Shown: piece after piece, positions 30,551 through 36,957 of the stretch | How the letters are laid out: each line of letters starts with the position of its first letter | Numbering within the stretch: position 1 is the first letter of the stretch | Virus record (IMG/VR): IMGVR_UViG_3300030430_004280 | Location: 311-37,321 of that record | Source of the DNA: a virus | Length of the DNA: 37,011 nt | Direction: 5' to 3' (one strand) | Translations under genes and position numbers: made by a program | Notes under the pieces: model-generated | Databases searched by the model: none | Seen by the model: the letters and a program-made list of their open reading frames with translations, nothing else | What the model was told of the DNA's origin: nothing

Positions 30551-32350
30551 TTATTTACTAAGTTTATATTCAATTTGATCCGCAAGTGGATTTCGTAAAT
30601 CTACTGGAACAAAACTTGCTTTCTTTCCTCCAGTTGTTTTGTTTCTAATACCAGATCCTCTTTTGTTATTGTTAGTGGTTTGTGGTACAACTACAATATT
30701 TTGATTATTAGAATTTCCTCCTGTGATTGAAGTTTTTGCTGCTGCTTCTTTCAATTCTTTAATTTTTAAATTTCTATTGATTTCTTTTTGTCTTATCATA
30801 TCATTTGAAACTCCAAACAATGGAGCTGATGATTTTGATCTTGTAACAAAATATTTTAACTTTTCTGGATTATTCCTATAAACAGCATTGTTAATTGCTA
30901 TGAAGAAATCTTGAACCGTAGTAGACACATTATCTCCTGGTCTTAGAAATAAATCATAAAATGATTGACCAACAAAGAATAAATCAACAAAAAATAATCC
31001 TGTTTTTGTTTTTGATTTAAATAATGCTTTTGCAAAGTCTTTATTAACAGATTTTAAAATTTTTGAACCAAATTTTGTAACGCTTGAACCAGCACTAAGT
31101 AAAGATCTAAAAGGTCTCTCTATTATTTGTCTTGTTAATGGAGTTGGCCCAGTTTTTAACATATTTGGTGTAAATGCTTTGAATGGTCTTAAATTAAAAA
31201 ATCCTTTTTTACCTGATTTAAAAGCACTATCTGAATATGTTACCTGTGAAAAATCATCCTTAATTAAATCTTTTAGTTTTGCATTATTTTCATCTGGAAA
31301 TCTAACATTTCTACCTTTATTGTAGAAGTTCATAAACCTTTTAAAGATATTAGGTTTAACCGTTGTCTTACTTTTGTTTTTAAGAATTTCCTCTGCAGAT
31401 CTAAGGTCAGAAGTCTTTTCTAAACTTTCAAAAGCTTTTTGTATAGAGACATAATAAGTTTTTTCAGCAAATGATAAATCACCAAACCTACGAAATACAT
31501 TATTACTATCTCTAAAAAGAGGTATACCATCAGTATTCATGAAAACTTGCTTTGACTTTTTTAAAATTTCTAAGGTTTTATCTGATATTATAATATTTGG
31601 ATTAAATCCTTCTTGACTTAATTTTTTATTAATATTTTTTCCTCTTTCAAATATTTTATTAATATCAATTTTATTCATATTAACTTTTCCACTTCCATCT
31701 TTACCATAATTTTTTCCAAACTTTTGTGCCAGTCTTCCTTTAGTGCCTCCAGTTGGGCCCTGTTTACCTTGATTTTTGTCTATAGTTGCTGTGCTTGACT
31801 TTTTTGTGTTAGTTGTGTTACCACCAACTTCAGAAGTAGTGGTAGTGGTTCGAGTATTTTCTGCCTCTCCATACCTAAAAGTACCAGATTCAAGTGTTGT
31901 TGCATTTGCTGCTGAACCAAACTTAATATTTTTAAAAGGATTTTTATTAAATAAAGGAAATTTTTTAAATCCTCTAGTACTAATATTTGTTGATTTTCCA
32001 AAATCTTCAAGTTGTTTGAGACCATCACCTCCTTTTTTACTTTTTTCAACTCGTCCAATCATAAATTTATCAATTCCAAATCCCTCTTCCTTAACTTCTT
32101 TAACTTCCTTCTCATCTTCACCACCACCAAATCCAGCACCAAGAATACCAACTAAACCAAGCAAACCTAAACCAAAAAGATTCATACCTTTCTTTTTGGA
32201 TTTTATTTCAGATCTTTTTGGTATTTTTATGTTCTTTAACTCTTTAGTTTCTTTTTCAATAAACTTCAATAACTTATTAAAATCAGATTTTCTCTGAAAT
32301 TTTAATGTCGATATAGTTGGTTTACTTATAGTTGCTTTTATTTTTTTCAT
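30551..32350 (-). CDS. Putative tape-measure/hub protein with one membrane segment, 599 aa
   Basis: Very basic N-terminus (MKKIKATISKPTISTLKFQR), then a Gly/Leu-rich hydrophobic segment at residues 56-77 (MNLFGLGLLGLVGILGAGFG) flanked by KKK and acidic residues. The middle is Lys/Asn-rich and helical; a second, weaker hydrophobic stretch (TGLFFVDLFFVGQSFYDLFL) is near residue 450. Its length is close to T4 gp29 (590 aa), the tape measure/hub protein, and it lies between the chaperone-like and gp27-like genes. Tape measures commonly carry membrane segments. I cannot see a direct sequence match to gp29, so this is inference from position, size and composition. Start lies four bases after the preceding stop; no strong ribosome site. 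Confidence 0.6.
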   Translation of the reverse strand: MKKIKATISKPTISTLKFQRKSDFNKLLKFIEKETKELKNIKIPKRSEIKSKKKGMNLFGLGLLGLVGILGAGFGGGEDEKEVKEVKEEGFGIDKFMIGRVEKSKKGGDGLKQLEDFGKSTNISTRGFKKFPLFNKNPFKNIKFGSAANATTLESGTFRYGEAENTRTTTTTSEVGGNTTNTKKSSTATIDKNQGKQGPTGGTKGRLAQKFGKNYGKDGSGKVNMNKIDINKIFERGKNINKKLSQEGFNPNIIISDKTLEILKKSKQVFMNTDGIPLFRDSNNVFRRFGDLSFAEKTYYVSIQKAFESLEKTSDLRSAEEILKNKSKTTVKPNIFKRFMNFYNKGRNVRFPDENNAKLKDLIKDDFSQVTYSDSAFKSGKKGFFNLRPFKAFTPNMLKTGPTPLTRQIIERPFRSLLSAGSSVTKFGSKILKSVNKDFAKALFKSKTKTGLFFVDLFFVGQSFYDLFLRPGDNVSTTVQDFFIAINNAVYRNNPEKLKYFVTRSKSSAPLFGVSNDMIRQKEINRNLKIKELKEAAAKTSITGGNSNNQNIVVVPQTTNNNKRGSGIRNKTTGGKKASFVPVDLRNPLADQIEYKLSK

Positions 32351-32354
32351 TTTA

Positions 32355-33845
32355 TTAAACTATACCAAGAGTTACTGCATTCATTTGAGATAAATGATTA
32401 TCACCATTAATATTTGAGTGAATAGCAACTGATGGGCCATCTATAAGTCCACCAGTATCATTTCTTTCTAAATTACCTCCTCCTCCATTGCCCATAGGTA
32501 ACATTGCCACCTGTGGGCCTGATTTAGGCATTACATTTGAAGACACATTTCTATTATAATTTCTTTTTCTTAACAAATTCAATTTTGTTCTATTTTGTTG
32601 AGATTTAGGTTTACTATCAATTAAAATTTGATCATATACATTTTTTGATGATGGCGTATAATTTTTTTCAAGTTCTTTTAGTATTTCTTCATTATCAATA
32701 TTTGATGGATCAACAATCGCATCAAGAAAATTAAGAATTTCCCTTGCTTGAATTGCTTCGTTTACATCATTCTGTGTCTGAATTCCACCAGCAGTAGATT
32801 TATTTGATTCCAGTCCCATCTGATAGAATGCTCTTGCATCATTAATATCCTCTTCATCTTTAAATCGACCAAGAACTTTTTTAATCTCTTGTAATTTTTG
32901 ATTCCTATCTAATTTTCTAAAATCTATTGCTTTACCAAATTTATCTGTAGAAAATTTCCCTCTATCACTTACTGATTCTTTAATCTGCTTTGAGAATATA
33001 TTTAATGGGAATGGTATATTATCTAATGGGTTTTCTCCAGTTTTTAATTGTTTAATTCTATTTTCAAGTAACTTTATTGCTTCAGGATCATCTGTATTAT
33101 TTTTCTTTTTTGCTTTCTCTTCAGAAAGAAGATTTTCTAATCTTCCTATTTCATTTTCATTTGCTTTTGCAGTTGCATCCATTAAATTCAAGGGACTATC
33201 TTTTCTAGTTGTCAATTCTTCCACGTCTTTTTTTATTCTATCATCACTTAGTTCTTCTAATTCTAAAGTTTGTGTTGTTTTAAATTTGCGATTAATATAA
33301 TTTTCTATCATACCATCCACTAATTCTCTAAAACCACTTGCTTTCTTTTTTAAAAAACTTATAATTTCTTTCCTATACGTAAACAATAGAGTTCCAATGG
33401 CACCTGCACCTAAAAGTCCCAAAAATCCAAGAATAATTGGATTAGTAAAGAAACTAATTGTTCCGAGTATTGAACCTATAGCACCAAACAATCCACCAAA
33501 CAGTCCCCCTCTTTTTTTAGCACCTCCTTTTCCAATTGATTTCATATTTTCTGCAACTTCCTTTCTTAAAATTTTAGCAATTTCAAAAGTTTCAACTAAG
33601 GAATCTCTAATTGTTTTTAAACTTTTTTGTAAAATTTTTGTAGTTTTTTTAGATCCAAAGAATTCAATAAAGTTCATACTAAATTTTTGATTTTTAGATA
33701 TTCCAGATGAACTTGGTGTTTGTGCTACATTTGATATTGCCCTTGTAGTTGTCCTCAAATTTCTAACACTATTTCTTGCAGCAGAAAATAAACCTGCACT
33801 CGCAGTCTTCATTATTCTTCTAGGTGCAATTGTTGGTGTAAACAT
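32355..33845 (-). CDS. Putative tape-measure-like structural protein, two membrane segments, 496 aa
   Basis: Basic N-terminal 110 residues (Arg/Lys-rich, predicted helical) are followed by a Gly-rich hydrophobic block at residues 113-157 (GGLFGGLFGAIGSILGTISF, PIILGFLGLLGAGAIGTLLF), room for two membrane helices. The remainder is a charged helical region (LEELSDDRIKKDVEELTTRK, RLENLLSEEKAKKK) and a Gly-rich end (GPQVAMLPMGNGGGGNLERN). The layout parallels the 599-aa neighbour (basic start, Gly/Leu membrane block, charged helices), so the two may share ancestry or function. Its start overlaps the stop of the 55-codon gene (TAATG, 33847-33843). It follows the proposed chaperone pair, the place where tape-measure genes sit in many phages. 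Confidence 0.6.
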   Translation of the reverse strand: MFTPTIAPRRIMKTASAGLFSAARNSVRNLRTTTRAISNVAQTPSSSGISKNQKFSMNFIEFFGSKKTTKILQKSLKTIRDSLVETFEIAKILRKEVAENMKSIGKGGAKKRGGLFGGLFGAIGSILGTISFFTNPIILGFLGLLGAGAIGTLLFTYRKEIISFLKKKASGFRELVDGMIENYINRKFKTTQTLELEELSDDRIKKDVEELTTRKDSPLNLMDATAKANENEIGRLENLLSEEKAKKKNNTDDPEAIKLLENRIKQLKTGENPLDNIPFPLNIFSKQIKESVSDRGKFSTDKFGKAIDFRKLDRNQKLQEIKKVLGRFKDEEDINDARAFYQMGLESNKSTAGGIQTQNDVNEAIQAREILNFLDAIVDPSNIDNEEILKELEKNYTPSSKNVYDQILIDSKPKSQQNRTKLNLLRKRNYNRNVSSNVMPKSGPQVAMLPMGNGGGGNLERNDTGGLIDGPSVAIHSNINGDNHLSQMNAVTLGIV

Positions 33846-34012
33846 TATTGTTGCATTTTTGAATTTTCCTCATCAATGTATTGATTTAATAATCCAACAT
33901 AGATGTCTCTTTCCCAAGGCATCATATTTTCAATTTCAGTTAAAGAGTATTTATGGTGCTGCATCAAAGCAAAGTTAAGTTTAAAGTATGACTCAAGATC
34001 AATATGAGCCAT
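33845..34012 (-). CDS. 55-codon ORF downstream of gp26-like gene; probable -1 frameshift extension
   Basis: This short gene is 55 aa: MAHIDLESYFKLNFALMQHH, then a helix, then MMPWERDIYVGLL and an acidic end. The MPWER-x-x-Y block resembles short second-frame segments of tail assembly chaperones, where P-W-E-R/Y patterns are frequent. It begins two bases after the TAG of the gp26-like gene and its stop overlaps the next ATG, so it fills the gap exactly. Its frame is -1 relative to the gp26-like frame, and a slippery heptamer precedes it. It may therefore be made as a C-terminal extension (about 298-aa fusion), as a free peptide through coupled initiation, or both. No good ribosome site lies at the usual distance before its ATG: the GGAGG is 25 bases away. 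Confidence 0.75.
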   Translation of the reverse strand: MAHIDLESYFKLNFALMQHHKYSLTEIENMMPWERDIYVGLLNQYIDEENSKMQQ

Positions 34013-34042
34013 AACTACCCGAAAAAACTCGTTATACCCTCC
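33990..34042 (-). promoter_or_regulatory. Candidate programmed -1 ribosomal frameshift signal
   Basis: On the minus strand: GGAGGG at 34042-34037, nine bases, slippery heptamer T TTT TTC at 34027-34021 in the correct frame (AGT TTT TTC GGG TAG), a ten-base spacer, then a stem GGCTCA (34010-34005) / TGAGTC (33995-33990) with a nine-base loop. The zero-frame stop follows one codon after the heptamer. Slippage gives F-F-R-V-V-M and runs into the 55-codon frame. The layout matches the dnaX-type arrangement (Shine-Dalgarno, slip site, hairpin). Confidence 0.65.
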
Positions 34043-34740
34043 AACGCAACATCACTTTCAACTTTTGTTTTTGGATTTGTAACTTTAACAGTGTGAGATA
34101 ATTTAGGCATAGTTTCAAAAAATGTCTCTATTTGCTTAAATTGATTTGAGTTTAAGGTATCTAACCACTCACTCAATTCTTTTTTTGTGCAATCAGACGC
34201 TGCCCAAGATTCATCAGCGTTATATACGACATCAATACATGAGGCAATGATATCTAATGATTCTTCAAATGAAATATCATTAGCACCAGAGATATCAAAA
34301 TTATTTTTTATAAATTCATCTAAAGATGGATATTTCATTCTTAATGTTAGATTTTGATCTAATACAATATCACGATTATGTTTTTCATTTTTTTGAACTT
34401 GTATTTCATCAAGAAAAATTTGAGTTTCAACTGTTGTCTCACCATCATCAGGACAAGTCACGATGACATCTACAGACTCACCGACTGACTTGCCACGTAT
34501 GTTTAGAAAAATATACTCTATGTCAAAGGTAGGAAGTTCCTCAACTTTAATTCCTCTTGTTTGAATACAAGATTTTAAAGTTGATTTAATTGCAGTAGTA
34601 ATCTGTTTTGAATCTTGACTTTCTAATGCAAGAATTAATATTTTTTCTTCCTTCACAAGGAATGGTCTGTATTTAATTTTCTTTCCCGTTGATGGTAAAA
34701 CCAATTCATAAGTCGGGGTCGCTATTTTTGGTAAAGGCAT
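34015..34740 (-). CDS. 26: gp26-like baseplate hub/assembly protein, 241 aa
   Basis: The N-terminus MPLPKIATPTYELVLPSTGK, followed by KIKYRPFLVKEEKILILALE, is the hallmark of the T4 gp26 family (T4_baseplate, Pfam PF12322) in marine T4-like phages. Features after it: FDIEYIFLNIRGKSVGE near residues 70-86, a cysteine-containing VIVTCPDDGE block near 92, and a helical C-terminal half (SLDIIASCIDVVYNADESW). In T4, gp26 takes part in baseplate hub assembly and is not clearly a major virion part; in context, it may be a tail-assembly chaperone. The start is 33 bases after the tube-fold gene stop with a weak ribosome site. The last codons (TS-FF-G) contain the slippery TTTTTTC, so a longer fused form ending in the 55-codon frame is predicted. 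Confidence 0.85.
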   Translation of the reverse strand: MPLPKIATPTYELVLPSTGKKIKYRPFLVKEEKILILALESQDSKQITTAIKSTLKSCIQTRGIKVEELPTFDIEYIFLNIRGKSVGESVDVIVTCPDDGETTVETQIFLDEIQVQKNEKHNRDIVLDQNLTLRMKYPSLDEFIKNNFDISGANDISFEESLDIIASCIDVVYNADESWAASDCTKKELSEWLDTLNSNQFKQIETFFETMPKLSHTVKVTNPKTKVESDVALEGITSFFG

Positions 34741-34773: not shown

Positions 34774-36957
34774 TTAGTAACCTCCGTAGTAACCACCACC
34801 ACTGTAGTAACTTGATCCAGAGGATCCAGAGGAGGAATCAGAAGATGAACTTGAACTTGAGGAACTCGTAGAAGAACTTGTGGTTGAACTTGTTGATCCA
34901 GAGGAGTCTGTAGTCGTGGTTGTAGTTGTAGTTTCAGTTGTAGTTGTGCCACCTCCACTTGTTTCAGTAGTTGAAGTTGTCTGAGTTGTCCCCTCTCCAG
35001 CTGTCGCTTCTGTTTCTGTTTTTGGATTGGTTTGCGTAATTACGCCAGTGGTGCTACTTTCTGATATACTTTCCTGAAGAGTATCATATACAATAGCATG
35101 TGGGAAAGGAGCATGTGCTTCACCTGCCATTCTAATAGTCCTATCATATAGTTGATGATTTCCAGATCCTTTTGATGTGAAAGTAATTGCAATTCCTGCA
35201 TTTGCATTAGATAGAGAAGTTGCGAGTTGAACTAAATTATCATCTACTTTTATGGTATAATACCTAGTTTCATTCTCAAGACCACCTATTGAAACATCAC
35301 CAAAGTAAGTTACAACATCACCAGTTTCCTTAGTATGATTATCAATTCTTATTGAAGACTTAGGAACAGCATCGACAAATTCAAATTTTAAGAAACCATA
35401 ATTATCACGACCAAATGTACTAACGTTTGGTTGTATTACTCTGAAGAATACATTTTCCTTTCTTGCTCCCTCTGGAATATCAATTTCAAAAACTTTTAGA
35501 GATCCATCATTATAATCACCTTCTTGAGGTGGAGTGTTAACTGGATTACTAGAATCTAAACTTAATATTGGAATAACTGTTCCAATTTCAGTAAGTATTG
35601 GATCACCAAAATTTTGATCAAAAGGTATATTTTCTAATCCACTATGACTACCTGGATCGTCTCCAACCCAATATTGTAAACGAATATCCTCAGATCCCAC
35701 ATTGTCTGGACGATGACCACCATTTCCTCCTTGAGATCTTAAACCAGTTCCTACTTTTGCATGAATTCTAAATTTTACAATATTTCGAGCATCTATTTTT
35801 TTTAATACTACATATCTTTCTCCTTTTCTGTTACCAAATCTTAAATAATCCTCACCATTAGGCATCTCAAATCCATTATTTTTTTCTGTATCAGTTATAC
35901 TTAGAGCACCACTTGGCACAACTTGTACCCTTACCAAACCACCATTGTATATTCCAGGAAAATCTGTCCTTTCAGACTCACTTAACTGGTAGGTATCAAT
36001 ATCACCTGTCATAAGAAAAAGATCATCATTTTCAATTCTAATATCTGAAGATAAAAATCTATCTGTGATATCGTGAGGATGAGTAGGCCCAAAATATGGT
36101 TTACCGCTTACGTAACCGACTGGAGGAGTTGGCACTGAACTACCAGAACTAGGTGCAATTTCATTTCCAATAATTTTTGGTCGCAATGGATTGACTTGTG
36201 TTAGCGAATTATTTACAAGTTTTTCTCGAACTGACTGCTGTGCATTACCATGTTTCTCAATCGTATGTCTCAAGTAAGTAAACACAACAGTTACTTGTAA
36301 GAATGTGCTACCATCATATGATAGGGGAACTGCATTAATATTGACTGGAAACGTATCAATAAAATTATAAGTCAATAGTGGCATATTCTTAAATGTATTA
36401 TTTCTATCATTTGGATTTTCTAAAAAATCTCTTTCAAATTTAGTAATTGATAATTTTCTTCGATAGTCATCTGGATATCTAAATCTTGAATATGTATTTC
36501 TCTCCTGATATGCTCCTAGTTGACTTGACGGTGATCCATCATATCTACCATTTGATTCATTATAAACTGGATTAATAAAATTCATCCACTCTTCAAGCAT
36601 ACGTAAAACATTATAATCATCGTCAATATAAAAGGTTAAATCAAATTCATTATATATTCTTCTAGTTGCGAATCTCTCTGTCATTCCTTGACGACTTCCT
36701 AATTCTTCAGAAATATTAAAGTTAGAACCTGGTAAAGATGCGGATGAACATAGAAAATCATACTTTTGATATGTTGAAGATGAGTCTTGAAATATACCGC
36801 AGTTAGTTAGATGTTGATATAACGCAACATTACTACCACTTATAGTTGAACTGACAAGATTCAACGATACTTTGAACTGACTTGAAATAGCCAGTTTCGA
36901 AAATATCGGACTTGCATTAGGTATACTTAAGTATAAATCCTCTGATCTTGTTGCCAT
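34774..36957 (-). CDS. Tail-tube-fold baseplate/tube protein with disordered C-terminal tail, 727 aa
   Basis: Residues 1-140 resemble tail tube/tube-initiator proteins: a basic start (MATRSEDLYLSIPNASPIFS), SSQFKVSLNLVS, CSSASLPGSNFNISEELGSR, then RFATRRIYNEFDLTFYIDDD and VLRMLEEWMNFINPVYN. LPG-x-x-F, then R-x-Y-x-x-F-x-L-T-F and a W-x-x-x-I helix are the tube-fold landmarks (compare T4 gp19, gp48, gp54). After this come about 480 residues of beta-rich sequence, including TRYYTIKVDDNLVQL near 590, the IRMAGEAHAPFPHAIVYDTL block near 635-655, then a Thr/Ser-rich run ending YYSGGGYYGGY. T4 gp48 and gp54 are about 320-364 aa, so this is much longer. Position before the gp26-like gene supports a tube-cap or tube-initiator role. 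No SD site is evident before the ATG. Confidence 0.65.
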   Translation of the reverse strand: MATRSEDLYLSIPNASPIFSKLAISSQFKVSLNLVSSTISGSNVALYQHLTNCGIFQDSSSTYQKYDFLCSSASLPGSNFNISEELGSRQGMTERFATRRIYNEFDLTFYIDDDYNVLRMLEEWMNFINPVYNESNGRYDGSPSSQLGAYQERNTYSRFRYPDDYRRKLSITKFERDFLENPNDRNNTFKNMPLLTYNFIDTFPVNINAVPLSYDGSTFLQVTVVFTYLRHTIEKHGNAQQSVREKLVNNSLTQVNPLRPKIIGNEIAPSSGSSVPTPPVGYVSGKPYFGPTHPHDITDRFLSSDIRIENDDLFLMTGDIDTYQLSESERTDFPGIYNGGLVRVQVVPSGALSITDTEKNNGFEMPNGEDYLRFGNRKGERYVVLKKIDARNIVKFRIHAKVGTGLRSQGGNGGHRPDNVGSEDIRLQYWVGDDPGSHSGLENIPFDQNFGDPILTEIGTVIPILSLDSSNPVNTPPQEGDYNDGSLKVFEIDIPEGARKENVFFRVIQPNVSTFGRDNYGFLKFEFVDAVPKSSIRIDNHTKETGDVVTYFGDVSIGGLENETRYYTIKVDDNLVQLATSLSNANAGIAITFTSKGSGNHQLYDRTIRMAGEAHAPFPHAIVYDTLQESISESSTTGVITQTNPKTETEATAGEGTTQTTSTTETSGGGTTTTETTTTTTTTDSSGSTSSTTSSSTSSSSSSSSSDSSSGSSGSSYYSGGGYYGGY
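34777..34990 (-). repeat. Ser/Thr low-complexity tract at the 3' end of the tube-fold gene
   Basis: The 3' end encodes alternating Thr and Ser runs, followed by a Ser/Asp/Gly stretch and YYSGGGYYGGY. Triplet periodicity is visible in the DNA. The ending is nearly the same as that of the gp5-like gene, and both are preceded by a related I-x-YDT-x-x-ES block. Confidence 0.7.

Follow-up and report, generated by a model that had tools for sequence, protein, structure and literature searches.

A probable programmed −1 ribosomal frameshift linking genes 26 and 51 in relatives of phage T4

The tail assembly chaperones gpG and gpGT of phage lambda are made from a small gene between the tail tube and tape-measure positions, where a −1 slip near the 3′ end, at the heptamer G GGA AAG, gives a short and an extended product with a common N-terminal body, both absent from the virion. 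In the dnaX cassette of E. coli, an upstream internal Shine-Dalgarno (SD) sequence, a slippery heptamer and a downstream hairpin are combined. Frameshifting of the G-T type was described as being conserved "except T4" (Atkins, 2016; PMC5009743). For T4, gp26 and gp51 were reported as hub assembly chaperones, with gp51 being essential, of unknown function and not found in the particle, and the same source cites genetic studies that locate gp26 in the hub (PMC3004832). This absence from the virion is claimed for T4 gp51 only and not for gp26. A comparison of cyanophage genomes found that gp51 of cyanophages and of marine vibriophages starts without the N-terminal ~200 residues and that Aeh1 alone has no gp51, which was left unexplained (Sullivan, 2010; PMC3037559).

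In this study a window of 37,011 nucleotides, nearly all of a 37,321-base IMG/VR virus record, was analyzed, and all features described here lie on its minus strand. A gene for a gp26-like protein of 241 amino acids (34015..34740) ends with GAG GGT ATA ACG AGT TTT TTC GGG TAG. Its Phe-Phe codons TTT TTC are part of the in-frame heptamer T TTT TTC (34021..34027), and only the G codon GGG (34018..34020) separates them from the zero-frame stop TAG (34015..34017). Nine bases 5′ of the heptamer lies GGAGGG (34037..34042), by its anti-SD energy a putative internal SD-like stimulator. The −1 frame reads through CGG GTA GTT ATG straight into an ORF of 55 codons (33845..34012), giving a predicted fusion of 298 amino acids (33845..34740; ...EGITSFF-RVV-MAHIDLE...). 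The original prediction, made from the sequence alone, had named the heptamer, GGAGGG, the stop-free −1 frame and a fusion of this size, and all of them are present. A downstream hairpin, which it had also proposed, exists as well, although not with six pairs beginning after ten bases: 11 pairs with one bulge and a 9-base loop (33985..34016; −10.4 kcal/mol) start four bases after the heptamer, the arms being AGT-T-ATGGCTCA and TGAGTCAT-ACT with a T as the bulged base. This block contains five tail genes, and across them T TTT TTC occurs in frame only once, which together with its near-absolute conservation in relatives speaks against chance. As tryptic peptides, VESDVALEGITSFFR is predicted to be specific for the fusion and VESDVALEGITSFFG to be its zero-frame C-terminal counterpart.

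The gp26-like protein is homologous over its whole length to PF12322 (E 2.7e-74; 250 bits with a cut-off of 24.5) and also matches phrog_150 (E 8.1e-80), labelled 'baseplate hub'. The 55-codon ORF matches phrog_634 (E 1.6e-27), the 'baseplate hub assembly catalyst'. Its description as a hidden ORF was dropped, as the ORF following gp26 is annotated as gp51 in P-SSM2, S-PM2 and others. The predicted fusion aligns to phrog_150 in a single end-to-end stretch with 306 bits, compared to 269 bits for gp26 alone, and its match to phrog_634 extends across the junction. Taken as one explanation, it is highly probable that a programmed −1 frameshift at the end of gene 26 yields gp26 and a gp26-gp51 fusion, and ribosomal frameshifting at this site is in itself very likely. 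The majority of ribosomes would stop at TAG and release gp26, while a minority would slip at T TTT TTC and complete the fusion, aided by pairing of the upstream GGAGGG with 16S rRNA and by the downstream hairpin. Both products most likely act like lambda gpG/gpGT, as chaperones that would hold a tape-measure or hub protein; the extra domain of the fusion would recruit tail parts, and the chaperones would leave before the virion is completed. In T4 and its close relatives the same two products would come from the paralogous genes 26 and 51, with the slippery site lost. The sequence basis of this reading consists of the conserved heptamer, the phase, the open frame, the stimulators, the loss of start codons, the paralogy and the copy-number pattern; from these we infer the slippage itself, its efficiency and the chaperone mechanism.

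The gene order of the window, consisting of a tube-fold gene, gp26, gp51, two large genes and a tail protein, resembles that around G/GT. The upstream neighbour (34774..36957; 727 amino acids) has a tail tube fold (PF23849, E 5e-18; phrog_45 tail tube, E 1.1e-34). This protein also carries a long C-terminal extension with a piece resembling a baseplate wedge protein (phrog_32294), and it ends in a Ser/Thr-rich low-complexity tail with the final letters SYYSGGGYYGGY. The two downstream neighbours (32355..33845, 496 amino acids; 30551..32350, 599 amino acids) are, by their position, candidate proteins of a tape-measure module; the first of them matched no family in the profile comparison, and no tape-measure homology was found for the genes downstream of gp51 in the window. 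The order of gp26, gp51 and two large genes is common to P-SSM2, S-PM2, S-N03 and S-CREM2. In S-CREM2, with a tail of 418 nm, the two large genes total 3021 amino acids, compared to 1655 in S-N03 with a tail of 138 nm, which suggests that they form the tape-measure module, two phages being too few for a test. In the record of phiM12 one gene at this position is called tape-measure-like. The two genes following gp51 are annotated as endolysin or chitinase in S-CREM2 (L209:3484-12555) and S-N03 (L210:5449-10418), and are nearly twice as long in the former; they may be unrecognised tape-measure proteins of cyanomyoviruses. For S-CREM2, gp206 and gp207 (gp26 and gp51) carry no note as virion proteins, while their neighbours have one.

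With lambda gpG/gpGT this locus would share a −1 slip close to the 3′ end of a small gene that follows the tube gene and precedes a candidate tape-measure position. It would also share the pair of a short and an extended product with a common N-terminal body and perhaps, judging from the literature on T4 gp51, the absence from the virion. A frameshift-extended second product with the same start is indicated here by the sequence signature and its conservation. The two systems differ in that no sequence homology is detectable, the family here being PF12322 and the heptamer T TTT TTC. A structural model of the gp26 from the window (pLDDT 84.8) had, in a Foldseek search against the PDB, its highest-probability match with the HK97 tail assembly chaperone 2OB9 (0.69; rmsd 3.8 over 72 columns). 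With an E of 1.0 and about a third of gp26 aligned this match is not significant, and the likeness in fold is suggestive only. A Pfam search of the same protein returned PF12322 only and no known tail assembly chaperone family. A model of a T4-type gp51 gave nothing meaningful against the PDB; against viral models it matched mainly gp26/gp51-like baseplate hub proteins, along with one 'tape measure chaperone' (E 3.7e-3). Sequence searches against solved structures yielded nothing useful, and a scan with the gp26 of the Desulfovibrio phage found no relatives. It is conceivable, if rather unlikely, that the frameshift is real and that the two products serve hub assembly (gp5/gp27) only, with no chaperoning of a tape measure. 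Such a restricted role would fit with classical T4 genetics, which puts gp26 and gp51 in hub assembly (PMC3004832), and with the fact that neither fold nor sequence connects these proteins significantly to known tail assembly chaperones. However, the location, which as for G/GT is flanked by a tube-fold gene upstream and by large genes at the tape-measure position downstream, and the two products with a common N-terminal body argue against it, and gp29, the tape measure of T4, is itself part of the hub. A G/GT-like role of gp26 and the fusion is likely. We infer it, as the original prediction did, and it is supported by the anatomy of the locus, by T4 gp51 being a covalent fusion and by the chaperone literature.

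The conservation of the site was followed across a set of 191 gp26 loci taken from IMG/VR and from named phages, 22 of them being of the Ackermannviridae type. Outside of the latter, T TTT TTC is present in frame at 169 of 169 loci, including those of Kyanoviridae, KVP40-like Schizotequatrovirus, Menderavirus and Desulfovibrio phage 7757, and an Aeh1-like Aeromonas phage carries it as well. Deep variants were found as T TTT TTT in phiM12 and Ochrobactrum phage OC and as T TTT TTG in Rhizobium RL2RES, and these are still slippery. The short gp51 ORF lies in the −1 phase at all 191 loci and never in another one. For a codon test, 107 Kyanoviridae-type sequences with less than 95% identity and 67 conserved codon columns of gp26 were used. 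The two Phe codons of the heptamer were TTT in 107/107 and TTC in 107/107 sequences, and they are the sole columns of the 67 without synonymous variation. Across the family Phe usage is 69/31 for TTT/TTC, and the remaining conserved Phe columns are mixed. The codon preceding these two Phe codons ends in T in all sequences (118/118). These sequences are related and do not represent independent trials; the adjacent conserved columns serve as the internal control for the frozen Phe codons. The expectations that relatives would retain the heptamer including its synonymous sites, the −1 phase and GGAGGG were borne out, with GGAGGG and a hairpin recurring in Kyanoviridae.

The stimulators show a similar picture. 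Anti-SD energies along the 3′-terminal 300 nt of gp26 were calculated for three groups, represented by the window, S-PM2 and P-HM1. In the group of the window the minimum (mean −8.15 vs −0.29 kcal/mol) is located 7-10 nt 5′ of the heptamer, and the window's own site is the strongest one in these 300 nt (−9.8 kcal/mol). In the other two groups this site is among the strongest: for S-PM2 the minimum is found at the same distance, and for P-HM1 it ties with one other site. The Glu codon at the SD-like site is GAG in 83 of 109 sequences, compared to 29% family-wide. The mean folding energy falls just 3′ of the heptamer. The hairpin of the window has a z of −3.8 against dinucleotide shuffles, and in 91 relatives from its group 81% of the hairpin cells are paired, compared to 25-45% when the frame of pairing is slid. 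Mean z values in the three main groups were −2.97 (91 sequences), −4.09 (S-PM2 group) and −3.52. The stems are of the ATGGCTCA/TGAGTCAT type in the group of the window, GTTCTATAATAAT/ATTATTATAGAAC in S-PM2, GATGCAC/GTGCATC in S-N03 and GCCCTC/GAGGGC in P-HM1, the last three occupying the same place with no common sequence. Folding compared to shuffles gave no support for a hairpin in Desulfovibrio, Mendera and Aeh1-like phages, and weak or no support in most phages of the Ackermannviridae type. The three sequence parts of a canonical bacterial −1 cassette are found: a zero-frame X XXY YYZ heptamer before the stop (except at the 22 Ackermannviridae-type loci), an SD-like site about 8-14 nt upstream, here at 9 nt, and a structure about 5-10 nt downstream, with group means in Kyanoviridae of z −3.0 to −4.1. 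The upstream SD, the heptamer and the hairpin with similar spacing are shared with dnaX, whereas the heptamer here is U-rich and the product extended, compared to an A-rich heptamer and a truncated product in dnaX.

The production of a separate 55-residue gp51 by termination and reinitiation after the gp26 stop, with the T-rich site being incidental, appears improbable. It would be compatible with the ATG located two bases past the stop in most cyanophages, with the stop and start overlapping as TAATG or TGATG in phages of the KVP40-like and Mendera groups, with the databases annotating gp51 as separate in P-SSM2 and S-PM2, and with translational coupling often putting the next gene in the −1 phase. 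Yet the synonymous codons of the heptamer are frozen, the SD-like site lies about 25 bases from the ATG, which in the window sits within the stem of the hairpin, and T4 gp51 is one covalent chain with a gp26 domain. Start codons are also lost. Over the first 18 codons past the heptamer the −1 frame is free of stops in all 137 distinct junctions, while the +1 frame is open in two. Within these codons 21/137 junctions contain no ATG for a separate gp51, and 13/137 (e.g., L064, L130 and L204) have no ATG, GTG or TTG before the gp51 domain, a pattern not easily explained if gp51 were a gene of its own. According to the translations, the 12 Kuttervirus-/Serratia-type entries scored as having an ATG mostly contain Met codons inside or bordering the domain; gp51 is unannotated in Vi01 and Serratia 3M. 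On account of the lost start codons and the frozen heptamer codons, gp51 as an independent gene was dropped. As many genomes keep an ATG in place, a separate gp51 may also be made in addition to the fusion. The T run, which comprises six T and seven in phiM12 and Ochrobactrum phage OC, might instead make RNA polymerase slip; this is a most improbable source of the fusion, as the run never exceeds seven in the loci seen, the phase of the heptamer relative to the codons is fixed, and an SD-like site near the dnaX spacing and a 3′ hairpin are stimulators of ribosomes.

The programmed frameshift also offers a view on T4. Its gp26 consists of PF12322 alone, and its gp51 of PF12322 plus a C-terminal domain matching phrog_634; judged by these domains the two proteins are paralogues. 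The gp26 of the window is homologous to T4 gp26 over its full length, the 55-codon ORF aligns with residues 211-246 of T4 gp51 (30% identity over 37 amino acids, E 3e-5), and the predicted fusion, which is homologous to T4 gp51 end to end, is by these matches the true counterpart of the full-length protein. In contrast to the window, T4 encodes two divergently transcribed neighbouring genes, has no frameshift and reads Phe-Phe as TTC TTT. T4-like phages have two copies of PF12322, and every phage examined with the −1 arrangement has one. Where single-copy phages have TTT TTC, T4-likes carry TTC TTT or other codons, indicating that two-copy phages have lost the heptamer. In an unrooted tree T4-type gp51, T4-type gp26 and single-copy gp26 each fall on one side of a branch (100/100, 99/99 and 93/90), which is consistent with one duplication. 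We regard it as probable that T4 is no exception: its genes 26 and 51 would be G/GT split by duplication with subsequent loss of the slippery site, and the single frameshifted gene would be the older state, persisting in Kyanoviridae, KVP40- and Aeh1-like Straboviridae and Ackermannviridae.

One mechanism, a frameshift fusion, would account for three observations, namely the 'truncated' gp51 of cyanophages, the apparent lack of gp51 in Aeh1 and T4 as the exception among phages with G/GT. T4, seemingly without the frameshift used by almost all other tailed phages, would have a separate duplicated gene instead, so that duplication would have taken the place of recoding in nature, and its gp26 and gp51 gain a testable role as a short and long chaperone pair. 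No prior description of a gp26/gp51 frameshift was found in the open-access literature searched. Phage records matching gp26 and the gp51 domain amount to 696 and 606, respectively; none of the records inspected annotates the fusion, gp51 is frequently missing from the annotation, and the finding bears on how these genes are modelled in hundreds of genomes of marine phages.

Phages of the Ackermannviridae type still encode the gp51 domain behind gp26, likewise in the −1 frame. The canonical cassette was rejected for them, as all 22 loci miss the heptamer and the hairpin is mostly missing. Their sites read A/G ATT TTC, G GTT TTC, G GCT TTC or A CTT TTC, and a shift, if it happens, would use a degenerate site. 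At these loci (L088, L090-L092 and L176-L193) the domain is unannotated or hypothetical and T TTT TTN is absent, the only common feature being a T-preceded TTC one codon before the stop.

Two further observations concern the T4-type proteins. Residues 32-141 of T4 gp26 (L082:7803-8429) have a weak match (E 9e-4) to phrog_1140, the family of gp28, so that gp26, gp28 and gp51 may all be paralogues. At L202 (G005:C1:125062-125666) the T4-type gp51 seems to be present in two PF12322 pieces, with three such pieces in total, and in models from Klebsiella phage KPV15 it likewise seems to be split; this may reflect an error in the sequence, or else the gene may truly be split or frameshifted.
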